DNA of 64,000 nucleotides from Siphonodentalium dalli (lineage: Eukaryota > Mollusca > Scaphopoda > Gadilida > Siphonodentaliidae), in the NCBI GenBank assembly GCA_032622095.1, contig CP136064.1:248159827-248223826 (forward strand). The letters run 5' to 3'. Under the pieces are notes generated by a model. That model was given only the letters and a program-made list of their open reading frames with translations, was not told the DNA's origin and did not search any database. Shown one piece after another: positions 11,779 through 56,800 of the stretch; within the stretch, counting starts at the first letter, position 1; every line of letters starts with the position of its first letter. The translations under genes and the position numbers were made by a program.

Positions 11779-13653
11779 GGGTCTATTCATATTGCACACG
11801 CGCTGGCGATTAATCGCCGCATTTTTTAAGGTTGAGCGGCTCTATGTGCATTCGATTGCATTCCTTCCTCCCACTGCTAACAGTCCCCCCAATAGGGGTG
11901 GGGGTCTGACGAAAAAATTCATACACATTGGATGATAAAAGTACTGTGGGTGGATGATAAAGTACTTTTGGTTGGGGTGACCACATATATATATGTTGAC
12001 ACATTAACTTTAATTTTCCTCAGTTGGATTGAACTGAGGTATCAAGTCTACTCATGTATATGTTGAGTACCACGAGCCATCACAATGACATAAGATTTGA
12101 GGGAACAATTCATAATTAGCTGGATAAATATTTACTATAGGACTAACATAGAAATAGGGGGTTCAATTCCATGCAGATGGGCATAAATATGCATATTTTA
12201 TTCCAACTTGAAATGTATATAACACTATAGTACGATCACAACGCAGATTACAGGAGTTTTATGTACATCATAATAAATTATTGCTACTATCACTCAAAAT
12301 AATCAAAAGTGTACGATTCAAGTGGTTCTATCAGATTTTTCAAACTTTTACTTATAGTAAGCCGAGTATGACAAAAATAATCTTTCTGTATAAAGCTCAT
12401 TTAACACAGTTACACTCAAACATATGATATCCAGTAAAAATTATGGGGAAAGAGGGGATGGGACCCCAATCTGTTGGAGGAAAAAAATAGATTTGCATGC
12501 AGGGAGGATGGTGGACCCATGGTTGGGAGGGATTTTTATGTTAAACCCTGTGTGTGAATGATTTTTTTCAGACCCCCCTCCCCCATCATTGAGTGCTCAT
12601 TTATATAGCCGGTGGCAACAATGACAATGCGGCACTAGAATTGATGAACCACCATTCAAATAGAATAAGTAATGGGACTCAGAATTCAACCTTAAGAGTC
12701 ACACACACGTCGTTTCAGGTAGAATTCTGTCGCCAGGACGCTGTTTGCATGAGCGATTGATTTCAATTTGATCGTCATTAAATCGGCTTATCATCGGTGA
12801 TCACACAAGCTAAACGGCACACAACTATCAATCGTGGCCAAATATTTGACCTATTATGTGAATGTTCTACCAATAATAGATGATTCAGTTGAAAAATGCC
12901 AAATATTTGACCTATTCTGTGAATGTTCTTCCAGCAATAGTTGATTCAGTTGCAAAATACCGGCCAGTCGGTGTTATCTGCAGTCGAGAAATTAATTACC
13001 TTGTGGTTGGCAGGAATGGCACACAAACGTGCTTTGAGCCAAAGAAGAATTTGGGTTCATCCATTTTGTCCAAAAAAAAAATCCCAGCAGAATTGTCCAT
13101 TAGTTGTAAATATTCCGACCATATGGATTGCGGGATCTAAATATTTCCAAACAGTTGGAAATTTTTTTTACCAGTTAGGAAAATGTCAACATATTTTATA
13201 AGGGGTTTGGGTGAATAGGTTTTAAATTGGTTTCAAATATGCCCAAAATGAAAAATGTCAACCCATGCCAGGGAGTGGAGTGAATAAAGATTCACGCATT
13301 GTGGAATTTCGGGTTCCAATGGAGTGTTGCAGATGGACATTCCAAGTTGGACCCCCTCCCCAACTGAGAATCTCTAGCATTACATATATCCCCGTATAGA
13401 CATATTCACAATCTTGGGTACAGTTTTGCGCGAGACTGTCGGGTAATATAATTCGATATTGAATTCTACAAAAATCACCACTGATGCCAGCTATACGTTG
13501 GAGACTTCGTTCCAAGCCATTTCCTTTCCTTAGATCATATATTATTTTGTCGCCCATCAGTTATGAGAATGACTGTACCCGGATAGTATATGCTGGCCGA
13601 GTGAACCATGCCATTCTCTGTAACAGCTACGCGTGTGCAATATGAATAGACCC
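11779..13653. mobile_element. Harbinger-like non-autonomous transposon, 1.9 kb
   Basis: Terminal inverted repeats GGGTCTATTCATATTGCACA and TGTGCAATATGAATAGACCC are flanked by TTA on both sides (11776-11778, 13654-13656), the target type of the PIF/Harbinger superfamily. The inside has a 65-base direct duplication near 12840-12960 (the AAATATTTGACCTATTxTGT motif) but no transposase. Confidence 0.85.
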
Positions 13654-19275: not shown

Positions 19276-19624
19276 CATGCCCAGCACCATGAGGCCTGTC
19301 AATTAATATACAATATCTTCTAACAGTTTATTATTCTTCATAAAATTAATAGTTTACAAAAATAATGTCTGGGACTATCATTGCATATTGCACATAACAC
19401 TATGACACACAAGATAAGATATCTTTGGGTGAAAATATATAAACAGATAAGCAGAAAATGCTAAATTAACAAATGAGCTAATCCCGATTTCCTAATCCTG
19501 ATCAGTAATAAGGATAAGGCCAAAAAATAAGAGCAATACCAAGCATGGCATGTGCCTCCCCTTTAAAGTAATAATGATATGGCCAAAATGACTAACAATA
19601 CCAAGCGTGGCATGTGCCTCCCCT

Positions 19625-20071
19625 TTAAAGGTACTCAATCCAATCAGAGGGTCCCCATATCATCAAGATACAACATTTCTTCAAAATGTGCTTTTGTTAT
19701 CAGAATAGATTAATTGCAACAAAATAATGCTAACCGCTGTCAAATATGGTATCAAATTTCCCAAAACGTGTTATTTATCAACATTTTGTTCAATGAAATA
19801 GGGCCGTATTATCACTTGAGTATTCACAAAATTTGAACATATTACCCTTGTTTTTAGAGTTATCCATCTTCATCCGCAATTTTGACTGAGACCATCCATT
19901 TTATGGCGTGTTTCTGGGCCACAAACAATTGAAACAACAAACTTCAGAAATCGATATCTGATCAATCTGAGCTTTGATGGGTGGGTTCCTCGACTCGAAT
20001 CAAATATTTTTTACCCCAGAAGCCAAAGCAATAGTAATTTAGGAGTGTTAAATTGGATTGAGTACCTTTAA
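19625..20071. mobile_element. TTAA-flanked element with AGGTACTCAATCC ends
   Basis: Ends TTAAAGGTACTCAATCCAAT and ATTGGATTGAGTACCTTTAA form inverted repeats bounded by TTAA. The 447 bp interior is non-coding. It sits inside a dispersed repeat whose unit (GCAATACCAAGCATGGCATG type) recurs on both sides. Confidence 0.85.
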
Positions 20072-26836: not shown

Positions 26837-29800
26837 CTACAATGTATCAATATAATACATAATGAAAGTGTCAATGACACTGTAGCTCACTTAGGTTGGG
26901 GAATAATTTAATGGTTGACAGTAAATGGAGGGATGTGGTCTGTAGGGTGTGCCAAAGGATTTAGTGATGCAAAGAGTAAATTCTAAAATGGCCACAGCGG
27001 CCATGTTTTTTTTGGCCAAATGACCCCAAAATGACTTGTTCCCATCTAGAGGTCACCCCGATGATCCATATGAAGTTTGGTGATGATCGGATCAGGGATG
27101 TGGTCTGTAGGATGTGTCAAAGGATTTATTAATGCAAAGAGTAAAATCCAAGATGGCCACCAGTGGCCATGTTTTTTGGCCACTTGATCCTAAAATGACT
27201 CGTTCCCATCTACATGTAAATGTCAACATTCATTACAAATTTTATGATGATCAGACAAACAGTACGGCCTGTAGCCCGCGCCAATGGATTTAATTTTGAA
27301 ATCCAAGATGACCACCAGCGGCCATGTTTTTTGGCCGAATGACCCCAAAATGAATCTTTCCCATCTACATGTCAATGTCAACATTCATGACAAATTTCAT
27401 AAAGATCAGACCAAAGATACGATCTGTAGCCAGCGCCAAAGGAAATTGTTGACGGACGACGGACGCCAACCCATGGCAATAGCTCAAACTTACAAAGTAA
27501 GTTGAGCTAAAAATTAGTGGACAATTCAACCTCGTAATTGGAATAGATTGCAAAAATATATTGAAGCCTACAGTGAAACCCATATGACTTATAAATACAA
27601 CATATTTTTCTGCTAAGATAAAAAGCTATTATGCAAGTACTGTTCATCAATTCTGCATGCTTAAAGGCACAGGCGGCGTTCGTTGCAGAAATATTCATAT
27701 TTGTTCAAATTGCCATAAACAGAAGGAATATTAAAATATATATAGTTTTGTTCTTATGCCAAACATAATCAGTGTATAAATAGTATATTGTCGTCAAGAC
27801 GTACAATGGTGTATGTAAACAAGAACCTGCTCGTGTTACAGAAGTTTTGCTGCTGTTTACATAACACAGCGCAATTCTATTGGTTAATTACACCCAAATG
27901 ATATAAACGCTCTTTATTATTTCCATAACAGGAAAACAGTAACAAACTAGAATGCACTCACTGGAGCTGCCTATACTTGCGCCCATCACACATTTGGCAT
28001 GTTTTGTGGTGTCTTGCCAACAACAGTTTGAACCACGGGTGCTGGCCCCTCGTATGAGAGATCAATAAAAAAATCTGGATATCAAATTTCAGTTCATCCA
28101 TCGCTGAAATATTTGTGTGTATGGACAGAATATCTCTGTTATCTGCAGTTGATCTATTACACTAATGATGGTCTTAGTAATACCGTACGAGTTGTTTGAC
28201 ATATTTATTGAACAATATAGACATCACTGATATGAAGGGTGTGAAGACGATTGGTTGCCGATGATGCTATATATTATATACCAATGGGTTAAATTACTAG
28301 TTTGACTAGAATGATTTGTGTATGCCATTGCACTTCATCGGCAAAAACCATCAAAATCAATTACAAATACCGACACAATTAAATAAAAGACGCGTTAATT
28401 AAGAAGTTTTTGAGACAAATTGTTTGAAGAACATGTTGACAGATGCTCTAATGAACATATGATTGTCAAAATTTATGGCAGAGTTGGGACTAAATTTCAC
28501 TTTATGCTTGGAATCAGGTGAGACACACAATACACACAATGCTTCACTTCATACAAAATAAGATGCTTCAGTTGATACTTTTATCAATGATCTTGTTAGG
28601 CCTGACGTGACATAATAAACCTTCCACGTTTTGTGTAATCGAGAGCAATCTCCTGCACCCCCCCCCCCACCCCTCAAAGGAATTCTGATCTCCTAGATTA
28701 TGCTGAACTGGCAAGTCTGGTTAACCCTTTACCCAACAAACCGGCCAAAACCGGCCAAATAAAGCTTCAACAGCCTAAAATATCTTCGGTCTGTCTCAAT
28801 AGAACCATACAAATATGGATATCATTGGAACCGGCTCCTTGACCACATTGTGATAGTTACAGTTATGCCATGTGCCAATGCATTCTCTTATATATGCGAG
28901 TCGACCATAGGTCGCCTCGCATATATAAGAGAATGCATTGGCCTAAAAAAAATCTTTTTTTAACACTTTTTACCATTTTTTCTTACATTCTTTAACAATT
29001 TTATAATTTTTAATATGTTAAGCCAATGCATTCTCTTATATATGCGAGGCGACCTATGGTCGACTCGCATATATAAGAGAATGCATTGGCACAGGGCCGT
29101 TCTGTTGGGTAAAGGGTTAAAAATTCAAGCTTGAGGTGTGCTGTCAATGCCATGAATCTCTACTCTTGCGACACCTGTAGAGATCATATTGAACCAGTAA
29201 CCTGGGAATGTTTTATCTGTTCTGATGGGGAACATTATATCATTAAAGAAAAAATATGCATGTAACATATTTTTAGTTAATACCTGATTTAGGCAACTTT
29301 TGTTGGCCGATTTCACTCTCTGTCCTTATAAGCATGAATTTCCCCCAGGTAACCAATTCAATGTTTATCGTGAAATCAGCTCACAAAAGTCACCTAAATA
29401 ATGTAATTTTGAGCTGGGATCTTCAAAAAGTTCCCAGGTTTTGAATTGGCAGATTGTGACCTCTACTGGAGTAACCATGACCTCTACTGGAGTAACCAGA
29501 GTATTGATTCATGGCATGATTTATCAACTCTAGTAAATATTATTATCAACCTTGTTTGTTTTTGAATGTTAACAAATCTAGAAAACTTAAAAAATATACC
29601 CTGGTTGATACCCCAAATCACCCAGAAAATTTTGACCAACATCTCAGAAACAATCTTTTGATGTTAACAGGTCTGCGCTGGACTCACCAAGAGTTTTTTG
29701 ATGGATTTCTTTCTCGCCATTTTGCATGCAGTATGTATTGGGGTCAGTCCGTCATTGTTCTGTATATTCAGACAGGTAGAGTCTTTATCACACAGGAGCT

Positions 29801-32800
29801 TCACAATTGTTAAATTATCACCTCCAGTTAAAGTATAATGTAAAGCCGTGTTACCATCGTATAAATTCACTGCGCACACATGGCTCACCAAACCATCTAC
29901 AAAATATGATGTAAAGCTGTGTTACCATCGTATAAATTCACCGCGCATACATGGCTCACTAAACCATCTACAAAATATGATATAAAGCTGTGTTACAGTG
30001 GTATACGTTCAATGCGAACACATGACTCACCAAACCATCTACAAAATATGATGTAAAGCTGTGTTACCATCATATAGGTTCACCACGCGCACATGGCTTA
30101 CAAAACCATCAATAAAATATGATGTAAAGCTGTGTTAGCATCGTATAAATTCACCCCACGCACATGGCTTACAAAACCATCTATAAAATATGATGTAAAG
30201 CTGTGTTACCATCCTATAGGTTCACCGCGCACATGGCTTACAAAACCATCTATATCACCTGACCAAGTATGTATAATTAAATGGCATTAATTATGTTGGT
30301 TGCTCCTTGTTACCTCTTTACTGTTTTGTATTTCAAAAGACAACATAATCCATTCAAGTCTGAGTTTAGTGTGCTTGTCATTTGCAGATGAGGTCAGCAG
30401 AGGGTGATTTAGTGACGCTATCCCGCATAGCGGGGTTGCATCACTAAATTCACCCCCTGGGGACCTCATTCTGCTTAAGCCTCATCTTCTCTTCTTTTCT
30501 TTATTATCATATTTCTATAGAAACTTCTTCACATAGATTCTATTTCTTTTTTCAGTTTAGTTTCTCTATATCCCCAAATTGGCTGACGACACATTGTATA
30601 ATCAAGGTTCCCAATGGGTGCACATCACAATATTCACCATGTGGGAACTTCGTTATGAGTCTATGTCTCCCATAGCAGATGAGGCCCTGCAGAATGAGGT
30701 TCCCAGATGGTGAATTTAGTGATGCCAGCCCGCTATGTGGGATAGCGTCACTAAATTCACCCTCTGGGGACCTCATTCTGCAAATGACAGGCACACTAAA
30801 CTCAGACTTGAATCCATTTAGTGGTATGCAAATGGTGATGTTTTTTAAATTACACCACAAATTAGAACTGCGAGCTAATTCAGCAGTTGAGTCAATTAAG
30901 CCTGAAAATGGAGTGTCTGACGTTTGCAGAATAAGGTCCCCAGAGGGTGAATTTAGTGATGCTATGCTGCAGAGGGCTAGCATCACTGAATTCACCCTCT
31001 GGGGGACCTCATTCTGCTTAGACCTCACCTTCCAGGAAGTATCTATTGTCTTAAATTGTTTTTAGTTACTTTTTCAGTCGCTTATGTTCAGTTGCTATAT
31101 CCCGTAATTTGCATAAGATAAATTGCATAATCGAGGTGACTAATGGGTGACTGGGGAACTTCAGTCTCATCCTAGGTCTCCCATAGAAGTTGAGGCCTAA
31201 GCAGAATGAGGTCTCCAGAGTGTGTCACTAAATTCACCCTCTGGGGACCTCAATCTTAAATATCAGACACACTATATCCAGACTTGGAGTCAATGGCAGT
31301 TCACATTGTCATCAGCATAAACAATCATCAATTTCTATGTGTTCTATTTAGACCATCCCATGTGAATCACATGTGTCGCACGCTAGCTTGAAAGACCTAT
31401 AACGGACTGAAGATGTAACCATCAGGGTATTTCAAATCATAGCAAGTATTTAACCCTTTCATGATGGGAGTTGCACTGGTGCAACATTAAAGATCCTGTG
31501 CCAGTGCATTTTCCTATATATGTGAGTCTCCCATCGGGAGCCTCGCATATATAAGAGAATGCACTGTCTTACAATGGTCAAGGTAAATATTGTTAGGCCA
31601 ATGCATTCTCTTATATATGCAAGGCTCCCTATGGGAAACTCGCCTATATAAAAGAATGTATTGGCACAGGGGTTTCGCAAAATTTCAGGACGCTCTAGTC
31701 AAGGAATGGTTAGTATAGTATAGCGGCTAAGACCAAAATTATGGGGGAATCATGCACTTTTTAGTAGAAGCATGAAACTTTGTATACACCTCCAGGGACA
31801 TATATGAAACAAATTATGATATGGACCCAACTCAAATAACCACTTTGTTGGTCGTCACAACGACTTTCGGAAACCACCCGATTTTTTTGACAAAAAAAAC
31901 ATGTTTTTTTCATAAGATGATCACTGTGCATAGCAAAAGTGTATTTAGAAGGTAGTTTTGAAGTTTTTATCAATATTACTGTCTATAGATGCATTCAGGG
32001 TTCCAAACCTCCAATTACAACAACAACATTTTACATGAAACTCATTGACTCATAATAGTTCATCATGTTCATGGGCTGGTAGGACCCATCATGTACCCCC
32101 ACCATTACTCAACTTCTTTGGTATTGTTCAGGAAAAATTATGTTACACAGGGGGGGGGGGGGGGGGTCGGAAAAAAAAATTCAGGCACATATGGCATTTT
32201 TTCCCTTTCGATCATTTTTTGTACCCATGCCAAATGGTTTTCCGTTTTCGGCAGTTTTTTAACACTAAAACAGAGATTTGCGGGGGAAATTCACTGTAAA
32301 CAACTGTATATGAATTTCTGTGCATACTATTTATCATGGATGTTAACATGGACATGTAAATAGGAATGAGTCATTTTGAGGTCATTCCGCCAAAAAAACA
32401 TGGCTGCCAGTGGCCATCTTGGATTTCAAAATTTGCAACAAAATACAACACGATAACTGCCTGCAGTCAGTTTACCAGTTAGAATTACATTATTTCTCTC
32501 ATTCAAAGTGGTTTTGAAGCCCAACTCATTGCCAAAACACTAAAAAAACAAGCAGGAATTTTTTTTTTTAGTTGCGGAAAAAAATGCTTGTTGATGGCTT
32601 TGACCACCACCCACCCAGGCATACGTGCCAAAATTTTGTTTTTCACCCCCCCCCGTGTTACCAGCAATTTTTTTGGGTCCTAATGTAGGGTAGGCCTACC
32701 TACTGGGTCAAAGTTACTAAGTTTCCTTTTGTTTTCGATCATGATGGGGAGGGGGAACGGTAATCCCATATAAGTGATGTCATTGTGATTGGATCTTAAC

Positions 32801-35800: not shown

Positions 35801-38800
35801 CCCCCCCCCCATATTGTCACGTTATGGAGAATATATTATAGAACAAACTCCACAACTCTTGGCATTACTACCCATCTTGATTGATATTCTGAACTCTCAG
35901 GGTGACATCAACCGCTGCACAGTCATCCCTAAAAAAATGCATCATGGTGACTTCAACACCAAGAGCTAGATCACAACCCGCCCCTACCCCAATCCCCAAT
36001 TTCTACAAATGTGACAGTATTACTTGATCACGACCTGCCTTCAATAAGTCGTGTATACATCAATTTAATAAGTTCTTTTGATTTGATTCAGAAAATTAAC
36101 CATATCTCCGATTATCATTTAGTAATTTTCACACATTGCAATTCGTGAAAACCACAACGAATCGGCTTTCCGTAGAATGGAGAATGGGTTTCCGTAGGCG
36201 ATCGTGCAGTTCAGCAGTATTTGTTAGTTTTGTTTATCGTCTATTACAAAAGTAATTTGCCTATATTTATTGACTATGTTCATAAATATTGCACATTAGC
36301 TTAACTATATTGACTTAGTGTTGTATTGCGACTATGAATTGTATCAAATACAGCGAATATTACTCAAAATCAAACGTAAGATTGACGGCAAAAGTGTCAA
36401 ATAGTCTTTTTCCACATGTTCAACATTAATTCTAATATTTCGTCAACCATTGCCAAATTGCGTAAGTTTGTGGCAATTGTGATGAATAACAGGGGGAATG
36501 GTGTTGTTGTTTTTGTTTTACCGTTGGTATTTATTTGGTATTTGATAATTGATCGTAATGAGCAAGTTAGCAGGCACAACAAGTGAAAACAAATCGTATT
36601 TTGTTCAAGTAAACATTAATCTCACGCGCGGGTTTATTAAAAATGTGGAATGACATTGAACGTGGAAACAGATATCTTTCGACACAAATATGCAATATTT
36701 TAACGCGCCCTTGCGTGAATATAGGGAAATTTTGAGAAGAGGTCCATATCAGAAATTAATTACCTTGGTCCATAGTATCTATATGTAAAGTATGGGACTT
36801 CTACTCAAAAGTGCATGATTTTTTTTCTTAACCGCTATACTAGTACTACTCACTGTGGTAAATCATCTGTCCCTTTGGCATGTTGACGTCTTTGAGGAAG
36901 ACACTTATTTGGTTAATTTCTGCATTACTACGAACATCATCTGGTAACCTGCAACAAATAAATAAAAAACAGTCATGGTATTTTTTTAAACACCTGCATC
37001 CAGACAATTATACAGGGGAAATCGGGTGAGGAAGGAGGTGAAAAAAATGTACTAGTATATATAATTTTATGAAATAAATTCATAAAGTTTCTCATGGTAT
37101 CTGCATAATGGTCTTTTGAGTACTTTTTATCCATGAGCTTTGAACACAAACATATTAAAATTTATGACTTCAAATAATAATAGATTGAATTTTGACCTGT
37201 GACAAACAGGATTGTCTTAAAAATTAATTTGTGCAGGGCTTGAGTGATCATATGCTTAACCCTTTCTATACTAATTACTCATTAACGAGTAGTTTCCTTA
37301 ATAAATGTTGAGATAATAAGTTCGACAAACGACATGAACATTTCCGCCAATAAATATGAATCTTTCAGCATCTATGTTATCTTTTCTTCTGACTGTTGTC
37401 TGCTAATTTATCCTTAAAACCCGTCCAAATGACAATAATATTACCATTCCAATGTATACCTTTATTACTGAATGGGAGAATCCATTTAGCAAAGAAAGGG
37501 TTTCATGCCAATCAAATATTGCGATCATATCCACAACATTTGTGCCATAGTTATCACCTGCTTTAACACAAAACATTTATTGCATATTTTGAGGTCGGTA
37601 TCAGGAAAGAATATCCAGACAGATACTGTCATCAATTATCTGAAAATTCTAAAGTCAGTCATCAAGAAAGGCAATGAAAAATGTGGATTATTCCCTGCCT
37701 TACCATACATATTTTAACCCTTTCATGACGGGAGTAGCGCTTGTGCAGCATTAAAGATCATGTACCAATGCATTCTCTAATATATGCAAGTCTCCCATAG
37801 GGAGCCTCGATATATATAAGAGAATTCACTGGCTTACAAGGTCGGTGTAAAAATATTGTTAGGCCAATGTATTCTCTTATATATGCAAGGCTCATTATGG
37901 GAGACTCACGTATATAAGAGAATGCATTGGCACAGGGTTTTCGCAAAATTTCAGGAAGCTCCAGACATGGAATGGTTTATAACCACAGGTATTGTTCCAT
38001 CCATCTCTTTAATGAGCCATGAAAAGTCATTGCTTTGATGAATACAAAAGTACAAAGAGTTGGATATCTGAATGATGGTATTAACCCTTTACCCAACAAA
38101 CCGGCCAAAACCGGCCAAATAAAGCTTCAACAGCCTAAATTATCTTGGGTCTGTCTCAATAAAACCATACAAATATGGATATCATTGGAACCGGCTCGTT
38201 GACCACATTGTGATGGTTACAGTTATGCCCTGTGCCAATGCATTCTCTTATATATGCGAGTCGACCATAGGTCGCCTCGCATATATAAGAGAATGCATTG
38301 GCCTAAAAAAACTCTTTTTTTAACACTTTTTACCATTTTTTTCTTACATTCTTTAACAATTTTATAATTTTTAATGTGTTAAGCCAATGCATTCTCTTAT
38401 ATATGCGAGGCGACCTATGGTCGACTCGCATATATAAGAGAATGCATTGGCACAGGGCCGTTCTGTTGGGTAAAGGGTTAAAGGCTGCTCAGAAGCTTGA
38501 ACAAGCCTGGATATTGTGTCTGACATTTGCAGAATGAGGTCCCCAGAGGGTGAATTTAGTGAGACAGACTCACTATATCCAGACTTTGAGTGAGTGCCAC
38601 AAAAAGTGCAGATGAATTCTTATTGTATTGGTATTGACCGCTTCACACATCTATTATATATTTTGGAACTTCTGTCTGTGTGTATGTATGTTTGTTATAG
38701 ACTCGAAAACAGCTCGACCGATCTGACTCAGATTTGTCATGTAGGCCTACTTCGATCACGGGAACAATATGGGTGGGTCCAGTTTCATGTGCGACCATGT

Positions 38801-41800: not shown

Positions 41801-44800
41801 AAATGGTCATCAAATCCAATGGATGTATTATGTTAGAACTGAATTACATCTCTCTGCAGATTAACAAGATATCACAGTGGATCAACGGACACAAACGAAA
41901 ACCGGAAGTCTCAGAGTCCGAAGCGAGGAATTTGTGTTGTCAAAGTTTGCAGACACTTTCTGACACCGCTTTTGCTGCTAATAAACACATTTAGACACAA
42001 CTTCTAAATAGTTTAAGGTAAGTGAATATTTTGTCACTAATATTCGACAACCAACGATTAGTTAGAATCAGTTGTCAGTGCTCAACACGGAAAAAATGCA
42101 ATTTAACCATCGCCTCGCGACGATTTCTTCCACAAAATATCCCAAATTTCAAAGCGGGTACATGTATATAAATTGGAAATTTGGAATACTGAGACATTCC
42201 ATGACAATACTCTATAGATGCATTTGTGATAGGAGGACAGACTTTTCGATCGGTATAATGGTTGTGGCGAAAAGTGGCTGAGATGATTGTGAAAATTTAC
42301 ATTTTCTGAGATATTTTGTGGAAGAAATCGTCGCACGGCGATGATTAAATTGCATGTTTTCCGTGATAGAGCACTGATAGCTGATTCTAACTGATCGTCG
42401 GGTGTCGAATATTAGTGACGAAATATTCACTTACCTTAAACTATTTAGAAGTGGTATCTAAATGTGTTTATTAGCAGCAAAAACAGTGTCAGAAAGTGTC
42501 TGCAAACTTTGACAACACAAATTCCTCACCTCGGATTCTGCGACTTCCGGTTTTCATTTGTGTCCGTTGATCCACTGTGATCACACTATAACAATAACTA
42601 TCTACAAAACTCTTACAATGATTTGTCAACAAACATCATTAATCATTTAGTAAGTTCATATATTTTAGTCTGCATATGATTTTTAGAAAATCTTCCAATG
42701 CTTTGACATTTTCTAATGTTTACCGTCAAATATTTATTAGACTTTGAATCATATTGGACTAATTAGACTTTTATCTGTAATTCCACTGTAAAAGTAATGT
42801 TTACATAACAATGGTTTTGACATGCAAAATATCATTACAGGAGAGTTCTTAACCCTTTGAGTACCAGGTCGATTTTTGTATCAACCCATATACCCTGTGC
42901 CAATGCATTCTCTTATATATGCGAGACGACCATAGGTCGCCTCGCATATATAAGAGAATGCATTGGCCTAACAATTTTTTTTTTTTTTTTTTTTTTTTTT
43001 ACAATTTTAATAATTTATTTTTATATTCTTTAACAGACTTATTTTGTAGGTTTAGAGCCTTTTATCATAAATGATATAACTTTGATTGAACCCACTTCAA
43101 AGACCTTGAGTCACTTTAATTAATTAAGATCATGGATCATCATCTCACCTTCACTAGCTATTGTGAGGTTATCTCGACTGTTGAAGCAGCTCATCGTCGC
43201 GCTTTCCTGGACACCAGAGTCACTGCCTGTTTCCAGGTCATTAATGTCGCTGAAAGAGATGTAGTACAATCAATCGTAATTACTCAGTGTAAAATTATGT
43301 ACAGGGGTTTACATATTAACAGAAAATAACAAAATTACCATTAGCCCTTCATCTAAATTCATTATTAAACTTTGTAAATGATATGGCGTTATAATGCATG
43401 TCCATATAAGTTAACATCAGTTTTTTATGTCAGAGCCAGATAACCTTTTTTAGTGGCCTGGATTAATGTAATCCAATAAATGTGTGCAGTTAATGTAAAA
43501 TAAATGTACACTGCTTTACATATTAGCAGAAAATAACAAAATTACCATAAGCCCTTATCTTAATTCTTTTAAGCCACATGGCAGGTTGTGCTCCAAAATA
43601 CAAATAATATTTGAATTTTTCCCGGTATTGAAATAGGTAAATAAATATCTTATCTACCTTTCTTATCAGCATTCTGTAACATAAAACGACGCATTGAAGT
43701 AATGAAAAATGCAACTATGATGAGGTGTTTGGATCCCAAACAAAAAACAGCCACTTGCACGACATGGAACAGAAAATGCTATTCTATTCCTGATATGGTA
43801 GCAATAAAGAGCGTTTATCTGACTTTGGCGAAAAATTTAAAACGGCTAGAAAATGGCTGACTTTGGCAAGTGTTTTTCAAAGCATATGAAGCTGGCATAT
43901 CAATATTTCATGTATTTATCAACCTATCGTATCTGTCCCTCCAATTGACCCTTCCGCAGATCTCGTCATTATACAATCAGATAACGGCATCTATTCACTG
44001 AGAGCCTGTGTTATTTCCGGTAAGACATCATCGTATGTTTAATAGCGTAGCAACAGTAATATCGGTGGATCTCTGTTCAAATTAAACAGCATTTTTTGTA
44101 ATTAGCAAGATTATTAAATTTCATACAAAGAATCCGTGCATCTCCTTATCGTTTGGTGAAATACATATTGGTGTTATTTATGTTTTGCTTATGCTAGATT
44201 GTGACATTTGTGATTTTGATTTAAAATATATGTTATTCCAATGGAATAGTTATTGTGTTCTTATATCTGATTAATTGAAAATTGGAGTAGGCAGCTCACA
44301 TGAGGTGTCTTAATTCGCAGTTTGTGATCTGCAACTGATTATCGGATTACATAATACGGTAATGATATGCAAATGGAGTCTCATTCCCTATTCAATAAAA
44401 CCTTGTTTAACAGCTAGGATCATGTCATGCTAATCACCTTGTTACTGAGTCTGCCAAATTTCGAGAGTGTCACTTACATCCTGGCTGCATTAGCCATGGC
44501 GTGTGAACTAATTGATTTATAATATGTGTCGTCTTAATGACAGGTCTACCTAGAATCATCAAGGCTGATCGCACATGGAACATACCGCAAGTGAACAGCG
44601 ACCACTGCACTTGCCTGGGGGATCCTTGGATGACAAGCTTGAACGCTGGGGTTTACTTCAGTTTAAAACTGTTCTGGTTTTTATTCATAAAAAAATGTAT
44701 TATAGTATTTTACCGAATACACACATATGCCGATCCACAAACCGATAATGCATGACGTAATTTTAGAATTTCTGAAAGTTTTATAAATAAAAATAAATCA

Positions 44801-47800
44801 AAACAGACTCAGTATGTATCAGCACGAATTTGTATCATTTCGAGTGGTGGTTACAGAACAGTAAATTGCGCCCGTTTAGGGGTTGATTCAAAATGCGATT
44901 ATGTGACCCAACCAGACAAGATGCTAATTTGTGTTGACAAGCACAATGAAAGTGGTGATAATAAATGTTCTTAAGTTTAAATCGTCATTTTAACTCAAAA
45001 ATCCCGTTATGAACACACTATTGTAATACTTTACAATTAGGGAAACGCCACGAGCAGACTTGATGTCACGCATAATCTCTGAATGGGGGGGGGGTGTGAG
45101 ACAAACGTTCTAAACGTCGTGGGCATGACGTTTAAATTGACCTGGTGTGAACTTTCATTTTTCCTCTGGCTTCGGGGACATTTCGCTCCAACAAACAGTT
45201 TATGTTCCAATTTATTTATTGACACGTTGTGATCGTAACCTTCGCTATATTATCTGAAACTTTACTCACAGGATTTTAAAGATGTATCCACCGAATTAAA
45301 ATAGAATTTATCGAAATAATCCGGCATATCCAACAGAGCTCCTATACACGGCTTCACAGTTTCACTCATATTTACCACTTGTTTGTCTTACCGCAGCTAG
45401 CTCTATGAAATAATTAGCCGTGGGCGAGGTTATCGGCCGCTGGCGGAAAGGTGAATTTACGTTGATAAAATTTGGAGGTTCAAATGAGCCATGTTCGTTC
45501 AAACTTTGTAAACGAGATGGCATAATAAGTCATGTCCATATAAGTTAAATTTTTTATGTCAGAGCCAGCCAACTAAAACATTTAATTGGTATTTTTTGTG
45601 TGGCCTCGATTAATGTAATCCAAGAAATATGTGCAGTTAAAAACTCCAACTAACCTGGTATCATCCTCCATTGGATTTCTGACATAAATGGCGGATTGCA
45701 GCAGGTACTTCACAGCCGAGACGTTTCCTTCTAAACACGCCTCCATCAGAGGTGTATTTCCTTCTTTGTCTCTCAAATTGTGGTCAAACCTTGTCTGAAA
45801 TTACAATTAATTGTTTAGTTTATTACAAAACAAAGTTTAAGTCTCTGACAGTCAAAAAGGAAGTAATATTAAAACAAGAGGTGTGCACTTGAGTGCTAGC
45901 ATACCCCCACCGTGGCAAATTCAACCCGCATTATCCGTATACCCAACAAAAACGATTTTTAACTTTAAAGAAAAATTTGGATTAATAATTTTGATAAGTC
46001 GAAAGGCCCATAACTTTGGGAAAAATCATTGGATCAAACTCAATTCGAACTTGACCTGTATTTTTATATGAACGACCCACAAAAAAAAACAGAATTTCCA
46101 ATTAAACAATCCAAACTTGAGTTAGCATCCGGAAACCAAAGAAAAAACAAGAACAATTGAAAAGTCGAAAAGCCCATAATTCTGAGAAAAATCATCGGAT
46201 CAAACTCAAATTCGAACTTGACCTGTATTTTGATATCATTGACTCACACAAAAACGGAATTTTCAATTGAAGTCGAAAAAAGTCGATTACTCTAGAAAAA
46301 ATCATCGGATCAAACTCAAATTCGAACTCAACCTGTATCTTGATATGACTGATCTACAAAAAAATGGTATTTGCAATTAAAGGATCCAAACTTGAGATAT
46401 CATCCGGAAACCGAAAAAGTGAGAAAATGAGGCGTAACTTTAAAAAAAAAAGAGAGAGGCAGTCCTAAGGACATTGCATACAAACAATTATTGAAATTGG
46501 TTCATAGTTGTTCGAGTTATGAGGTCGGACGGACTGACGGATGGATGGTACGATGGACAGACGGATGGTACAACGGACACACAGAGGGAGAAAGCGTAAC
46601 GGACAGACGCAGTCAATCCAGTATATCCCCCATTTTCTTCGAAAGTGGGGGTATAATGACTGAATTTATCCTAACAATGAGTTTGTCTGAAACAAAACTA
46701 GAATATTACTTTGTGATATCATTTTATAATATGCTATACATATTCTTTTAGTGGGTCATTCTCAATATTTTACTAGCTTTATAAAGATGGTCTATCTCTT
46801 CCTAAATACGTTTTATATAGTTTCTGGGGTATAAAATAATAACATGAGTGGACGATACATGTCCGGAAATGCTACAATAAATTATTATTGATTTTATATA
46901 AAAAATTTCTTATATAATGTGATAATTAATTGGGACATTTTTTCATTATTATTTTTAAAACAGGCTTCATGAAACGTTCAGGTGATCTCAGATAGAGATA
47001 GAGTTCTCTATCTTACTGATAGAGTTCTCTATCTTACTAAACTCTGAACATTTACGCGAGCCATAAAATGTCCCAAATAAATGGTATGTATCATACCAGT
47101 AAATATGAAATCAATGAATTGATAGAAGTGTTTCCGGACAGGGATCTTCAATTCACATTTATTATTTTATGTCCACGAAACTATATTAAACTTGTTAGGC
47201 CAAAAAAAAAAGGGTTTTGATTCTCGGGCATAGCCGCGTCTGGAAAAAAGGCCCGCGTTGAAGCATTTTATTACGATTTTCAAATTGACCGATGCTGTCA
47301 AATGATAACACGAAAAGGAACTAGAAAAGAGAAATTAGTTATGTTTCAAACATCGAATATGATAGACATACAATGGTGTATGTGTTGGTATTCAACAACA
47401 GACACTAGGCAACGATAACTACCAGGTATATTGTCACCACAAGCTGCCCAAACCCCAAGTTTATTAAGTCAAATGTGTTTCCGTGCTGTAAACAATTATG
47501 TGATTTCCAATTTCGGGAATGCAAACCGGAAAGAAATATGGTGCGTATTGGCGATGTGTATGCTGGTTTAATTTAATAGTATTTGAAGTTTTTATGGCTA
47601 GCATGTATAGTTACTATAGTATAGATGGATAAATATTAAAGTATATAGATAGATATAAAATGTATAATCCCGATTTAAACTTTGATTATTTTAGTTCCGT
47701 TTCCGTCTTTGTTGTATTCCGTGTTTTATATACGCAGTAACAGAGAACGAGAATCGAACGGACCTCAAACAAATCTGTCCATGTGTATTCTCTTTAATTA

Positions 47801-50800
47801 AGTTTAAATTCACCGATGTTACTGAATATATTTGGCGACAAAATTATCCGAGAGCACCATTGTATAGTGTGCAAATATATTTTTAATCGTTGTATTTTGG
47901 CTTGTTGGAAATAAAGCATGATCCATAACCGAAAAATCGTAATTTTATTCCCAATGATTCAGTGATTTTAGAAATTAGAGACACTCGGTAGTCGGTGTCA
48001 AGGCCGTTAATTGTGCATAGATCATAGATGTACTAAACTGTGAATACTACCGAAAGGGTGTGCCTTTGAATGCAGAAAATCTAGAAACAGGTAACTGAGG
48101 TGTGGCAGATGCAAACTAAAATTAAATGCAACAAACAGTCTATGACATTTAAATAAAAAATATGAAGTGTTTTCCATGTTACTGACATTGAAATAAATCT
48201 CCCTATTTTTCACTAAATCTCCCTATTTATGAGGACAAATCTCCCTATTTCCAATTATGAAAGTATACAGGTCTGATATAAATAGATATATACCATAAAA
48301 AGGTACATACATATATCAAATATACCAACAATATATATATGATGTACGGGTAGTATTATGTGATAATTGGTCATTCTTTATAGTGGAATACAATGTTCTC
48401 CTTAGATTTTCTTAACCTGGGAAGGTATAATAACCCATGCTAACTATGGGCATTATCCCCATAACAAAGATAAAAACTAAAAATAAAACCCTCGCCCCCT
48501 CGTCGATTCTCAAAAATGAAAGTGTCAATGACACTGTAGCTCAACTTAGGTAGGGGAATAATTTAATGGTTGACAGTAAATGGAGGAATAGGAAAGGTTC
48601 TAATTGAAATGTCTAACCTGCGCCAAAGGATTTAGTGATGCAAAGAGTAAAATACAAGATGGCTGCTAGTGGCCATTTTTTTTGGCCAATTGACCCCAAA
48701 AGGACTCGTTCCCATCTACGTATAATTGTTAACATCCATGACAAATTTTATGAAGATCTGACCAAAGCTACGACCTACAAATTTCATGATGATCAGACAA
48801 ACAGTACGACCTGTAGACCGCGCCAATGGATTGACTATTGAAATCCAAGATGGCCACTGGCAGCCATGTTTTTTGGCCGAATGACCCCACAATGATTCGT
48901 TCCCATCTACATGTCAATGTCAACATTCATGACAAATTTCATAAAGATTAGACCAAAGGTACAACCTGTAGCCCGTGCCAAATGATTTAGTCATGCAAAG
49001 AGTAAAATCCAAGATGGCTGCTGGCGGCCATGTTTTTTGGCTGAACGACTCCAAAATCACTCGTTCCCATCTACATGTCAGTGTTAACATCCATGACAAA
49101 TTTAATAAAGATCAGACCAAAGGTATGACCTGTAGCCCACGCCAAAGGATTTAGTCATGCAAAGAGTAAAATGCTGGTGGCCATGTTTTTTGACCGAATG
49201 ACCCCAAAACGACTCGTTCCCATCTACATGTCATTGTTATAATTCATGACAAATTTCATGACCATCTGACCAAAGCTACGACCTGTAGCCCGCACCAAAG
49301 GATTTAGTCATGCAAAGAGTAAAATCCAAGATGGCTGCTGGCGGCCATGTTTTTTGACCGAATTACCCCAAAACGACTCGATCCCATCTACATGTCATTG
49401 TTATCATTCATGACAAATTTCATGATGATCAGACGAACAGTACGACCTGTAGCCCGTGCCAATGGATTGAATTTTGAAATCCAAGATGGCCGCCAGCGGC
49501 CATGTTTTTTGACCGAATGACCCCACAATGATTCGTTCCCATCTACATGTCAATGTCAACGTTCATGACAAATTTCATAAAGATCAGACCAAAGGTACGA
49601 CCTGTAGCCCGCGCCAAAGGATTTAGTCCCCAAAATCACTCGTTCCCATCTACATGTCAATGTCAACATCCATGACAAATTTCATGATGTTCCGATCAAA
49701 GCTATGACCTGTAGCCCGCGCCAAGTGTTTAGTCATGCAAAGAGTAAAATCCAAGATGGCTGCTGGCGGCCATGTTTTTTGGCCGAACGACTCCAAAATC
49801 ACTCGTTCCCATCTACATGTCAGTGTTAACATACATGACAAATTTCATAAACTTCCGACCAACACAACGACCTGTAGCCTGCACCAAAGGATTTAGTCAT
49901 GCAAAGAGTAAAATCCAAGATGGCTGCTGGCAGCCATGTTTTTTGGCCGAACGACCCCAAAATCACTCGTTTCCATCTACATATCATTATTAACATCATT
50001 TACAAATTTCATGATGATAAGACGAACAGTACGACCTGTAGCCCGCGCCAATGGATTGAATCTTGAAATCCAAGTTGGCTGCCAGCGGCCATGTTTTTTG
50101 GCCGAATGACCCCAAAATGACTCGTTCCCATCTACATGTCAATGTCAACATTCATGACAAATTTCATAAAGATCAGACCAAAGGTACGACCTGTAGCCCG
50201 CGCCAAAGGATTTAGTCCCCAAAATCACTCGTTCCCATCTACATGTCAATGTCAACATCCATGACAAATTTCATGATGTTCCGATCAAAGCTATGACCTG
50301 TAGCCCGCGCCAAGTGTTTAGTCATGCAAAGAGTAAAATCCAAGATGGCTGCTGGCGGCCATGTTTTTTGGCCGAACGACACCAAAATCACTCGTTCCTA
50401 TCTACATGTCATTATTAACATCAATGACAAATTTCATGATGATCAGGCGAACAGTACGATCTGTAGCCCGCACCAATGGATTGAATCTTGAAATCCAAGA
50501 TGGCTGCCAGCGGCCATGTTTTTTGGCCGAATGACCCCAAAATGACTCGTTCCCATCTACATGTCAATGTCAACATTCATGACAAATTTCATAAAGATCA
50601 GACCAAAGTACGACCTGTAGCCCGGGCCAAAGGATTTAGTCATGCAAAGAGTAAAATCCAAGATGGCTGCTGGCGGCCATGTTTTTCGGCCGAACGACCC
50701 CATAATCATTCGTTCCCATCTACATGTCATTGTTAACATCCATGACAAATTTCATGATGTTACGATCGAAGCTACGACGTGTAGCCCGCGCCAAAGGATT

Positions 50801-53800
50801 TAGTCATGCAAAGAGTAAAATCCAAGATGGCTGCTGGCGACCATGTTTATTGGCCGAACAACCCCATAATGACTCGTTCCCATCTACATGTCAATATTAA
50901 CATCCATGACAAATTTCATGATGATCAGACGAACAGTACGACCTGTAGCCCGCGCCAATGGATTGAATTTTGAAATCTAAGATGGCCACCAGCGTTTTTT
51001 GGCCGAATGACCCCACAATGATTAGTTCCCATCTACATGTCAATGTCAACATTCATGACAAATTTCATAAAGATTAGACCAAAGGTACAACCTGTAGCCC
51101 GCGCCAAAGGATTTAGTCATGCAAAGAGTAAAATCCAAGATGGCTGCTGGCGGCCATGTTTTTTGGCCAAACAACTCCAAAATCACTCGTTCCCATCTAC
51201 ATGACAGTGTTAAATCCATGACAAATTTCATAAACTTCCGACCAAAACAACGACCTGTAGCCCGCGCCAAAGGATTTAGTCATGCAAAGAGTAAAATCCA
51301 AGATGGCTGCTGGCAGCCATGTTTTTTGGCCAAACGACCCCAAAATCACTCGTTCCCATCTACATGTCATTATTAACATCAATGACAAAGTTCATGATAA
51401 TCAGACGAACAGTACGACCTGTAGGCCGCGCCAATGTATTGAATCTTGAAATCCAAGATGGCTGCCAGAGGCCATGTTTTTTGGCCGAATGACCCCAAAA
51501 TGACTCGTTCCCATCTACATGTCAATGTCAACATTCATGACAAATTTCATGAAGATCAGACCAAAGGTACAACCTGTAGCCCGCGCCAAAAAAAATTGTT
51601 GACGGACACACGGACGACGGACGCCAAACCATGACAATAGCTCAAACTTACAAAAGTAAGTTGAGCTAAAAATTGCTCGATAATCAAAAACTTTTTTTTG
51701 TTGGCCTTATAGGAAAAGATAGATCTTTAAATTTTTTGGCTCTAGCATTGAATTGAAACAAAATTTAATAATTGGGAACAAATTCCGAATGCGGAGATAA
51801 CCTTTAATTGCTGTCATCAACTGATACCAGCATTATTTAAAGGCATATTATATTCCAAGCAAACAACAGATAAACAAACGAGACTGATTTCCCGAACGAG
51901 TCACTTTTTTTTATTTATATGAATAAATGGCATTATGTTCTGGCAATTTGATAAAAAATTATTGAAATGCCTGCATTGAGGAAGTTTGTTCGCTGTGAGT
52001 TTTTCAAATTTCTTTAACCTCTTGCCTGCTATATGTCAGTACTCAAGTACGGACGTAAAATGTCACACTGTGTGCTATACATCCGTACTGAGTACAGACC
52101 TACTTCAGCACACTAGCATTTTACCATTATTCATAAATGGAACTCAGATATTGGTGCATCAGAACCATTGTATCTCAAAGTTTTAAACAGTTGTGAAAGA
52201 TAACAACTTTTCAACAGAGTCAGTTTTATGGTTTTCGTGATATTCCCAGCACATTTTTCCATTGGAAAAGTCCAAAATGTCAATGGCCCAGTCTCAACAG
52301 TGAAGAGGTTAATGCTTTCATGATTGGAGCCACTCTGGTGCAGCATTACATATCATGTGCCAGTGCTTTCTCTTATAATATATATGCGAGTCTCCCATAG
52401 GCAGCCTCACATTTATAAGAGAATGCACTGACTTACAAGGTCAAGGTAAATATTGTTAGGCCATGCATTCTCTTATATATACAAAGCTCCCTACGGGAGA
52501 CTCGCATATATAAGAGAATACATTGGCACAGGGTTTTCGTAAAATTTCAGGAAGCTCCAGTCATGGAAGGGCTAAGGGAGCATAGATGCGGTTTGTTTCA
52601 GCATTATTAACCATTGCAAAAACTAAATCTTTCATAAACAAAGCTAAATGTTCAGACTAGTGGATTCAATGCAAAATGACATGTCCTAGTTTTCAAAGCA
52701 AAAATATTCTTTTAGCGTGTAGAAATTAAAATATCCTGCAACACTGTTATTTGTTGCAGTAAGATTTCAAATTTTAGATCAAAGTCATTTTCTCCAAAGG
52801 GAAAGCCAAATTATTTGATAAGGATATGTTCAGTACACTAAACATATCCAAACAACATACCATCCACACTTCCATTAATTTGTCCATCCCCCTTTTTGAT
52901 GGATCTCTGATGAGCTGCATGACCTGTTTAGTATGCGACTCCCTGTGCGCCTGTATCACGATATGAACTCCTTCAAACTCCGGGCATGAGAACAAATAGC
53001 CACTATCATTTAACACCGCTGTGGTGGCTCCTCTCGTTAGCAGCAATGAAACTATCTTACTGTAACCTTTGAAAAGAAGAGTTAAATATATATTAGATAT
53101 AATCAGTGGTTAGTCTTTTGATAACTAGAAACATATCAATGAGTAGTTACTTGATTCCTACTAATTCATTTGTACGGATGTTATGCTAGAAATTTCAACA
53201 AGAGGTTGCACCGGCAGTGCTGGCATACCCCCACGGTGGCAGATTCGAAAGGTCAAAGTACGCGTGAGATATCTGCTCAGATGGGAACATTTTCAAATAA
53301 ACAAAGATAAATAACTCTAGAATGGAAAACATGAACAAATCAATTAAACAATCAATTGATTGCCATCATAGTAGTGAACACCCGGGCCCATACCAAATTT
53401 CATTGATATCTGTCAACCGGTGGTGGAGATACAGACAAAAAACCAATACTTCCAAATAAACAAAGATGAATAACTCTAGAATGGAAAACTGATTGAAAAA
53501 CAAATGATTGAACACTCCATCCATTGCCCTCATAGTAGTGAACATCCATACCAAATTTCATTGAGATTCGTCAACCGGTGGTTGAGATATCTGCTCGGAC
53601 GGACAAAGAAAACAACATTTACATGGGAGAAGTTTCTGTCTGTGATCTGCTTCTGTTATCAGAATATCCATACAAATTAAGAATATACCAATACATTGTA
53701 TAAGTTTAGAATTCAAAATAGATACATCAACAAGCATGGGTGAATGGGTTGACATTAGACATGTTCCAATCCACAAACATGCATATAAGTCTAGAATGAA

Positions 53801-56800
53801 AGACTACAATATAACAATAACATGATTCTCAAGGGGGCGTTATGGTTTATGTTGGTTTATGTCAATCATTTAGCGAGGGCTGTTAATAAACCATAATGAC
53901 CGAATAAGTCATGCTATTACTATTGTTATAACCGATCGGTCTGGTGTGCCGTCGTTATTGAACAGACCATTTCATTATCGGCCTGGTGTTTTTGAATGAT
54001 AAGTAATTTGGAAACAGCGAAATTTATTGATTGATTGGGGTTTAATGACGCTTTCAGCAACTGAGGCCATATCACGACATTGCCAGGTTTTAGTGGTGGA
54101 GGAAATCCGCACACTTACGTCTAATCTAAAAGAAATTTCAATGGCTGATAAATTAATCGACCATGTGTGGCAAACCACGGGCCATCGGTGAGTAACTGGC
54201 AACTCCACCAGATAATGATTTTGAGTTACAAATTCCACGATGGAAACATGTGGATTTGAACCCTTATCACCAGTGCTGGAGGGCAAAATGGCTTGGAGTT
54301 GTACCCCTAACCGATTGAGCCACTGAGGCCCCCTGAAACAGCGAAAAATGACAATAATATTTCAAGTTGCATGGCACAAGACTTGTCAAGGGAAGTACAA
54401 TAATGAGCTGTTGAAATTGCACACATCGTGGTCAGGATCTTGTTATATTATGTATGACAAGTGTGGAGTAAGGACAACCTTACCTTTTTCAGCTGCAATT
54501 TGTAGAGCAGTTTTGTTATCATAGTTGATTGAGTTGATGTCCAGTAGGCGGCGATCGCTGAGGAAGCCGGTTGCTTTGAACGTGTAGTTCCGGTAGTAGT
54601 GTGAGGTGGGGCTGCAGAACTGGAGCAGATATTTGAGTATCTCGATAGAGCCGTGTTCTACAGCTGTGTGAAGTATAGTGTTTCCTGATGTCTGATGTCT
54701 CTTCTTCAGATCACAGCGTTTCTGTGAACACAACCCATAGATTATATAGAGAGTAATCAATTGGTTCCGAGAATTGCGTTAAATAATTCATAAGAGGCAA
54801 GAGACATCGGTAAGAAATGAGTGCACATCCGCACATGAGTTTCTTACTTCTTACCTAAACGTCTCTTGTCTGGAGTGAATTATTTAACTTAGTTCTCAGA
54901 ACTAATTGGTTAATCTATTTATTACACTTTTGCATCAATTTGGTTTGCCAAATATGATTAAAACACCCAGAGTTAATGCATGAAAGTCCCGATGTGGAGA
55001 AAGATCAACCATCAAAAATTCAGTCTAGATCAGTAAGGACATAATTCACTTGTGACATTACCATTTTTAATAACGGCATTTTCAATGGAATTCGCACATA
55101 GGAGTGTACTAATTTATTATACTTCAACTAGCTGAAACAGGCTCCTTTGTGAGCCTTTATTCAGCTGCACAAAATTTGAATTTTTTAATTTGTTTTAAAT
55201 GAAATTCTTGCTCAATTTAACAAAAAATAATAGTTTTATTTTTTAAATAAAAATTGATCTTTGTTAAAAATCTAAATTTTGAAAAACTAGTTCAGTTTGG
55301 ACATCTGCCAGGGTACCCCAAATTTGGTTGAAATCGGTCCAGGGGTCTGGATGAAAGACGAGGACAGGACTTTTATATATATATGTGTTTACCTTAGCGT
55401 GGGCTACTTGCCTGATAACACTTTAATAACTTGCTGCTCATTCATTAGTAAATATTTGATTCTCGTTCATTTGTGAAGAGTTTTTAACCCTTCCATGACT
55501 GGAACTTCTTGAAAGTTGCGAAAACCCTGTGCCAATGCATTCTCTTATATATGCTGGTCTCCCATAGGGAGCCTCGCATATATAAGAGAATACATTGGCC
55601 TAACAATATTTAACTTGGCTTTGTAAGCCAGTGCATTGTCTTATATATGTGAGGCTCACTATAGGAGACTCGGATATATAAGAGAATGCACTGGCGCAGG
55701 AAATTTAATGTTGCAGTGCTCAGTGCAGCTCCCATCATGAACGGGTTAACCCTTTACCCAACAAACCGGCCAAAACCGGCCAAATAAAGCTTCAACAGCC
55801 TAAAATATCTTCGGTCTGTCTCAATAAAAGCATACAAATATGGATATCATTGGAACCGGCTCCTTGACCACATTGTGATAGTTACAGTTATGCCCTGTGC
55901 CAATGCATTCTCTTATATATGCGAGTCGACCATAGGTCGCCTCGCATATATAAGAGAATGCATTTGCCTAAAAAAAATCTTTTTTTAACACTTTTTACCA
56001 TTTTTTCTTACATTCTTTAACAATTTTATAATTTTTAATGTGTTAAGCCAATGCATTCTCTTATATATGCGAGGCGACCTATGGTCGACTCGCATATATA
56101 AGAGAATGCATTGGCACATGGCCCTTCTGTTGGGTAAAGGGTTAACTAGTATGTTCAACATCAGCTTCAGGCTTGTTGAAGTTTTTCTCTGAAAATCTCT
56201 ACATGTGATCAACTGTGAATCGATAGTGAATACCTCTGCCTGCTGTATCCTTATATTATCTGAACATCCTAGCACATTAAGAATATAGACCATTCATATC
56301 AGACCTGTTACCCCAATGTTTTCCTGTCAGGGAGAGTGACTCTGCCAGTCAGTGAGATTTCAAGTTTTATCAGTGAGATTTAATTTGGTCATCAAAACAT
56401 ACATATTTGGTGCCCTAAAACTATATTTTTAAGTTTATTCAACACGTAATACCAAGTCATCAACTTTCAAGTCATCAACTTTTCAATTTTCCATTACTAT
56501 TATTAAATATCAATAATTCGATCCGAAGCCATACAACTACTTTCATTATTCTCAATACAGAGATATCACATGTACTTGTGGCTACATATACATGTTACAG
56601 ATGTATTAGTCATTTATGATAAAATAATTATTCGTTTTTGTTTTTGTTTGATTACCTGTCATTAGTCGACAGTTTTATTATATTTAGTCGAGGAGCCAAT
56701 AAGGTCCACTTGCACCAACCCCCCCCCCCCCCCCCCCCCCCCGATTCTTACAAATAACCTTATTTTTATTGTTCCCTATGGTATCCAGATATAAAAAATC

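Follow-up and report, generated by a model that had tools for sequence, protein, structure and literature searches.

A 71-bp tandem array across a predicted intron-exon boundary, and an ankyrin exon acceptor probably rebuilt from duplicated codons

How is an exon entered correctly when its beginning stands repeated in tandem across the boundary with the preceding intron, and from where does such an exon draw its splicing signals? These questions are raised by a predicted ankyrin exon on the minus strand of a 64-kb stretch of contig CP136064.1 (hereafter the window; all positions are counted from its first letter), the start of which is the last unit of a 71-bp tandem array. We favor, with a probability of roughly two in three, the explanation that this array is a neutral minisatellite of the type termed 'mirage' in lancelets, and that it offers a single productive acceptor, which is probably the one at 29896.

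The tandem array, first noticed in a sequence-only reading of the window, is recovered by Tandem Repeats Finder on the minus strand at 29830-30252 (period 71, 6.0 copies, 86% matches, 0% indels, score 580), and a repeat search likewise returns six head-to-tail copies with spacings of 71, 71, 71, 71 and 71. A 23-base piece of the unit has 6 matches in the window at up to 3 mismatches, all of them inside the array; the mean over 100 shuffles is 0.00. From the outermost copy inward, the units, all on the minus strand, are U6 (30182-30250, 69 nt), followed by five units of 71 nt that end at 29827: U5 (30111-30181), U4 (30040-30110), U3 (29969-30039), U2 (29898-29968) and U1 (29827-29897). Their alignment agrees with the claim, made in the same reading, that five more degenerate copies lie upstream of the exon. 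The exon itself (29688-29896, minus strand) is 209 nt long if entered at 29896, with two bases completing a codon. Its 69 whole codons are open and match Pfam Ank_2 with E=7e-10, and it ends in phase 0 at CTCTTG/gtgagt (the slash marks the splice point), a donor at the 99.3th percentile among GTs on the strand. U1 is the copy inside this exon and forms its start; hence the array overlaps the exon by one unit and spans the predicted intron-exon boundary. Coding over the whole length of the array was considered and is ruled out by stops in all frames. RNA structure in the array does not exceed chance (z 0.39), with 66 of 100 shuffled sequences folding equally well or better.

Could the array owe its length to the assembly? 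Tandem arrays are prone to such errors, and a lancelet globin mirage was misassembled in a draft genome (PMC3087553). Nevertheless, an artefact inflating a shorter true array is very improbable; an assembly artefact was a possibility that the sequence-only reading had itself raised. All 15 unit pairs differ, by 5-18 of 71 columns, and for this reason assembly stutter is unlikely; furthermore, the array, with about 425 bp in total, is shorter than one long or Sanger read. The order in which the units were copied is left open by the support values of two trees built from 68 columns: IQ-TREE separates U1, U2 and U3 from U4, U5 and U6 with a support of 83, while pairing U4 with U6 (75) and U1 with U3 (58), and FastTree supports the group of U4, U5 and U6 with 0.897.

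The next question is what was amplified. Read in the frame of the exon, the unit translates as DG-VSHV--VNLYDGNTALHHIL, and the motif DGNTALH is exact in four of the six units (U6, U4, U2 and U1) and nearly so in U5 (DANTALH) and U3 (HCNTALY). The Pfam Ank match starts at the D of this motif, and it is in the exon copy alone that the repeat runs on past the end of the array. Because DGNTALH begins an ankyrin repeat that is carried on by the exon, the 3' half of the unit is coding by origin, with the exon as its source. The junction between units places the ankyrin codons GGT AAC ACA GCT TTA CAT CAT ATT TT before a TAG, as in GGTAACACAGCTTTACATCATATTTTGTAG. The product of this junction is a TAAC that is branch-like by general branch-site rules, followed by a pyrimidine tract, which is weak, and, some 25 nt on as counted by eye, by an AG. 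For the exon's acceptor, the TAAC and the pyrimidine tract are supplied by the 3' half of U2. On the other side of the array, the 5' flanking sequence, ...ATACTTGGTCAGGTGATATAGATGG, when compared by eye, matches the tract that precedes TAG in the units only over its last five bases, TATAG, and the exon start was therefore amplified together with five intron bases at most: those of TATAG if the original acceptor lay at 30249, and none if it lay at 30258. On this comparison of sequences, the branch-like site and the pyrimidine tract in front of each TAG were once codons, and the putative acceptor of the units is new. The notion that an intron acceptor had been amplified with the exon start is thus not borne out, as the 3' half of the unit consists of ankyrin codons that run on into the exon, and the 5' flank is unlike the tract.

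How strong are these sites as acceptors? The one at 29896 scores 1.38, with the 90th percentile of AGs on the strand at 1.19; for the other five acceptors predicted in the gene the range is 1.04-2.48 (1.9 for 62953). Upstream of the exon, a junction AG is present in four of five copies and scores well in three, namely the TAGs before 29967 in U2 (1.43), before 30038 in U3 (1.38) and before 30180 in U5 (1.38). The outermost, at 30249, scores -1.36, and U4 has TTG at the homologous place, leaving no junction AG near 30109 (TATT/GATGG). A second AG, in the form of CACAG after the TAAC, is found in all five upstream copies (30200, 30129, 30058, 29987 and 29916; scores -0.39 to 0.92), and the exon copy has ACGG in place of CACAG. 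GTGAGY or GTAAGC also occurs within the units. Hence the decoy acceptor that the sequence-only reading ascribed to every copy is seen in three of the five upstream ones, whose AG and pyrimidine context score 1.38-1.43, like that of the exon; of the other two, one is without an AG and one is weak.

Which of the AGs could lead into an open exon? Each of the 20 AGs of 30300-29831 was read to 29688 in three phases. Just four are stop-free, in one phase each: 29916 (one lead base, score 0.29), 29896 (two, 1.38), 29883 (one, -5.63) and 29869 (two, -0.28), and the remaining 16 are closed by stops in all three phases. When the phase of the exon itself is kept, entry at 29967 or 30038 terminates at the TAG of the next junction, entry at 30180 at a TAA just beyond the junction that is without TAG, and entry at 30249 or 30258 at a TAA inside the outermost unit. 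Exons entered at these five positions would be 280-571 nt long; the six predicted exons of the gene measure 75-238 nt. It had been argued earlier that, as 71 is not a multiple of three, the use of several units would shift the frame, such that the last copy has to be chosen or variable products result. The alignment of the units for AG and open frame that had been proposed alongside, in which the status of the AG varies and four AGs are open to the exon end, upholds the outcome of this argument, in that the inner edge alone is productive. The reason is a different one, since even the frame-keeping step of three units (213 bp) is closed by the stops that the outer AGs hit in every phase, and the outer acceptors would give truncated products.

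With regard to the site from which the exon was originally entered, the outer edge of the array provides two candidates. Outside the array at 30258, CAG/GTGATATAG scores 1.86 as against -1.36 for the TAG at 30249. Two lead bases from 30258 give DIDGFVSHV..., and from 29896 GLVSHV..., in identical frame and phase. We consider the CAG the likelier of the two. We picture the following course of events. First, some 71 bp at the 5' end of the ankyrin exon would have been duplicated in tandem, and further copying would have led to six units across the intron-exon boundary. The duplicated ankyrin codons, together with the TAG at the unit junction, would by happenstance have formed a usable acceptor, and the acceptor of the exon would have shifted from the outer edge, probably the CAG at 30258, to the last junction at 29896, with the reading phase kept and the five outer units turned into intron. 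From then on, the outer acceptors would yield only stop-containing messages, presumably cleared by nonsense-mediated decay, and selection would keep the last acceptor and let the others decay. As a separate observation, the CAG/GT at 30257-30261 on the minus strand (CAG/GTGATA) scores both as an acceptor (1.86) and as a donor (3.30), and may represent a recursive splice site in a long intron.

Entry at 29896 has to be weighed against several adverse points. The predicted upstream ankyrin exon at 45655-45794 (minus strand) has phase 2 at its end, which does not agree with the phase-1 start of the array exon when entered at 29896; a direct fit of phase to the 45655 exon is offered instead by 29916 (CAG, 0.29) or 29883 (GAG, -5.63). 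Entry at 29896 therefore calls for a bridging exon after 45655. One candidate on the minus strand, X1 (43149-43249), is compatible in phase with both the 45655 exon and 29896, having one lead and one tail base. A second, X2 (36854-36948, minus strand), has the same phases, again with one lead and one tail base, and is hence an alternative to it. Neither X1 nor X2 has a domain match. At a score of at least 9.2, the gene strand between 30.3 and 45.6 kb holds four candidates, two of which have the right phases and one other of which is nested in X1; the opposite strand of this interval holds two, none with the right phases, and the whole opposite strand four, one with the right phases. At a score of 11.5 nothing passes on the gene strand or in the controls (X1 rounds to 11.5). 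The bridge candidates thus exceed the controls by only a modest margin, and a bridge is plausible. X1 and X2 could also be mutually exclusive exons, and one or both may be spurious. Further adverse points are that no exon is recognised after 29688, that the splice-site score matrices were written from general knowledge, and that experiments in which duplicated acceptors compete can favor the intron-proximal copy, which here would be an outer one.

The phase misfit would be avoided by entry at 29916, the CAG in U2, spliced straight to the 45655 exon without any bridging exon: its one lead base fits the 45655 donor, the frame is open to 29688 and the exon would be 229 nt long. We regard this as unlikely, given that its score lies at about the 80th percentile of AGs, short of 29896 and under the range of the five other acceptors, and that it sits 5 nt past the branch-like TAAC, a spacing at which another branch site would be needed. 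The fourth open AG, at 29869, would make the unit a mixed one, more than half of it intron by origin, with GCGCAG/TG as the true acceptor. This site shares the phase of 29896 with its two lead bases, lets the protein continue as NLYDGNTALH, and has its CAG in the exon copy alone; but the five other copies are without AG at that place (GG, GG, GG, AT and GG), its score of -0.28 compares with 1.38 for 29896, and a TAG and a GAG intervene after the pyrimidine tract. We hold it to be very unlikely.

A further alternative is that the exon is a pseudo-exon that is never spliced in, and the array a minisatellite of the usual sort lying in a defunct ankyrin fragment. The joint to the 45655 exon is unproven and the following exon unrecognised, as such a state would have it, but the 69 open codons, the intact ankyrin signature, the high-ranking donor and five other predicted exons on the strand make this most improbable. 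These five, all on the minus strand, comprise, besides the 45655 exon, predicted ankyrin exons at 62848-62953, 61176-61250 (with a weak Ank match, E=0.0033, for its open frame alone) and 54484-54721, and an exon at 52861-53066, which alone is without a Pfam match and joins the 54484 exon in phase (...AAEKG-YSKIVSLLL...). The joined translation of the predicted upstream exons, including 53066-52861, matches Ank_2 with E=2.7e-28. The joined exon translation is matched by 431 sequences of solved structures (E up to 0.01); the best 60 of these, headed mostly by designed ankyrin proteins and ankyrins, are uninformative on the identity of the gene.

There is also the question of whether the outer acceptors are used on purpose, with some messages running into a stop, either in the unit entered or in the one after it, and being destroyed or yielding a truncated ankyrin protein, so that the array would act as a dial of output dependent on copy number. 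We consider this unlikely, though three outer acceptors do score like that of the exon, and in the five intron copies a core from TAAC to TTTT varies in 1 of 24 columns as against 19 of 47 elsewhere (Fisher p 0.0016). This core, however, was picked after inspection; scanning every position yields p 0.017, and an invariant stretch as long as the longest observed, 13 columns, is not unusual (p 0.20). With CpG, gap and junction columns removed, the contrast falls to 1 of 22 against 8 of 34 (p 0.07), the rest of the unit being CpG-rich. In addition, one junction AG has been lost, and mirages in lancelets are reported to leave splicing undisturbed. Outside the junction, three columns differ in the exon copy alone, and all three fall within the core. 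Selection maintaining acceptor function in the outer copies would fit the conservation of the core, a consideration to which we give little weight. A still bolder form of the proposal, under which ankyrin codons would have furnished a chain of complete acceptors, each leading to a stop within about one unit, and thereby a poison-splicing dial set by copy number, perhaps outside lancelets, is quite unlikely in our estimate.

Several other repeats were observed in the window, the GC content of which is low. If up to 3 mismatches are allowed, a fold-back repeat, GAATGAGGTCCCCAGAGGGTGAATTTAGTGA, has 24 matches window-wide, and many of these face each other in pairs (for example 30441-30471, 30692-30778 and 30929-30959); five of its copies are located 5' of the array at distances of about 200-1000 bp. 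There is a further palindromic repeat around ATGCATTCTCTTATATATGCGAG, with 41 matches at up to 2 mismatches and again many facing pairs (for example 28878-29086 and 55903-56111). Three arrays of similar-looking tandem units of 155-164 bp (AAAATCCAAGATGGC...), at 2087-2697, 26937-27443 and 48777-51590, are perhaps cores of a mobile element. Taken together, the low GC, the fold-back elements and these tandem cores are reminiscent of bivalves. Scans with repeat patterns gave no match in viral_contigs (three patterns) or genome_contigs (two patterns), collections of viral, bacterial and archaeal records. Short duplications at 12837-12958 and 19504-19630 were considered as further boundary arrays and dropped, as no exon signature was recognised in them by eye. 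The segment 54332-54060 on the minus strand resembles, by eye, a tRNA-derived SINE, in which ARAGORN finds no tRNA. Rfam (at the gathering threshold) and tRNA scans of the 64-kb window returned no matches, and of four pieces of reading frame on the plus strand, two of which overlap, none has a Pfam match above the cut-off.

Returning to the neutral array with one productive acceptor, its interest is threefold. An intron boundary has seemingly been moved by tandem duplication, and the signals of the new acceptor lead back, one codon after another, to coding DNA. Mirage arrays would be more widely distributed than the papers found report, should the host prove not to be a lancelet; our literature search met no report of one outside lancelets, a weak negative given that subscription papers lay mostly outside it. 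Lastly, with near-identical acceptors competing in one natural intron, the choice made by the splicing machinery could readily be tested here.

In lancelets, mirage minisatellites have been described in the globin genes BflGb6 and BflGb9, in Adh3, in troponin C and in PGBD5 (PMC3087553, PMC3902484); these papers cite a 2002 Adh paper. Their units over intron-exon boundaries measure 10-72 bp in Adh3, 60 and 108 bp in PGBD5 and 150-160 bp in BflGb6 (PMC3087553, PMC3902484). AG/GT signals are present in many but not all copies, and the BflGb6 units are 81-100% identical (PMC3087553). Splicing is reported or suggested to be undisturbed, and copy number to vary between individuals (PMC3087553, PMC3902484). 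The Adh3 mirage shows length and somatic instability (PMC3087553), and the imperfect PGBD5 arrays over splice sites have 2 versus 7 and 3 versus 6 copies in two versions of the genome sequence (PMC3902484). The present array resembles these in its diverged tandem units over a predicted boundary and in the AG/GT signals of many copies. Judged on its sequence, it fits the description of a mirage, and its uncommon trait is that its putative acceptors were born from codons: in BflGb6 the intron's 3' end is part of the unit, whereas the unit described here has at most five intron bases and owes its branch-like site and pyrimidine tract to codons.

Outside the mirages, the closest likenesses concern the gain of introns. 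In the potato RdRp gene (PMC4974935), a case discussed under the Rogers model, the start of an exon was likewise duplicated, with the earlier copy becoming partly intron and the downstream copy remaining exon. There, the parental intron passed on its branch site, pyrimidine tract and AG, and the gene gained an additional intron with a donor that was new; in the present array, if 29896 is indeed the acceptor in use, an existing intron would have been lengthened and its acceptor replaced, with no new donor used. Intron gain of the Rogers type, by AGGT duplication, would have the duplicated segment provide a new donor as well as a new acceptor. Donor-like sites do occur at 30031 in U3 (TTTG/gtgagt, 4.51) and in U1 (TTTG/gtgagc, 3.66), each 8 nt past an acceptor, and the 8-nt exons that they would define should shift the frame. 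Novel intron positions in Drosophila, attributed to sliding or to tandem duplication (PMC2891723), similarly involve an exonic duplication with subsequent intronization, with stops in 18 of 18 tandem-duplication introns. In contrast to the acceptor array described here, however, the Drosophila cases are duplications of AG/GY proto-splice sites that gave rise to new introns.

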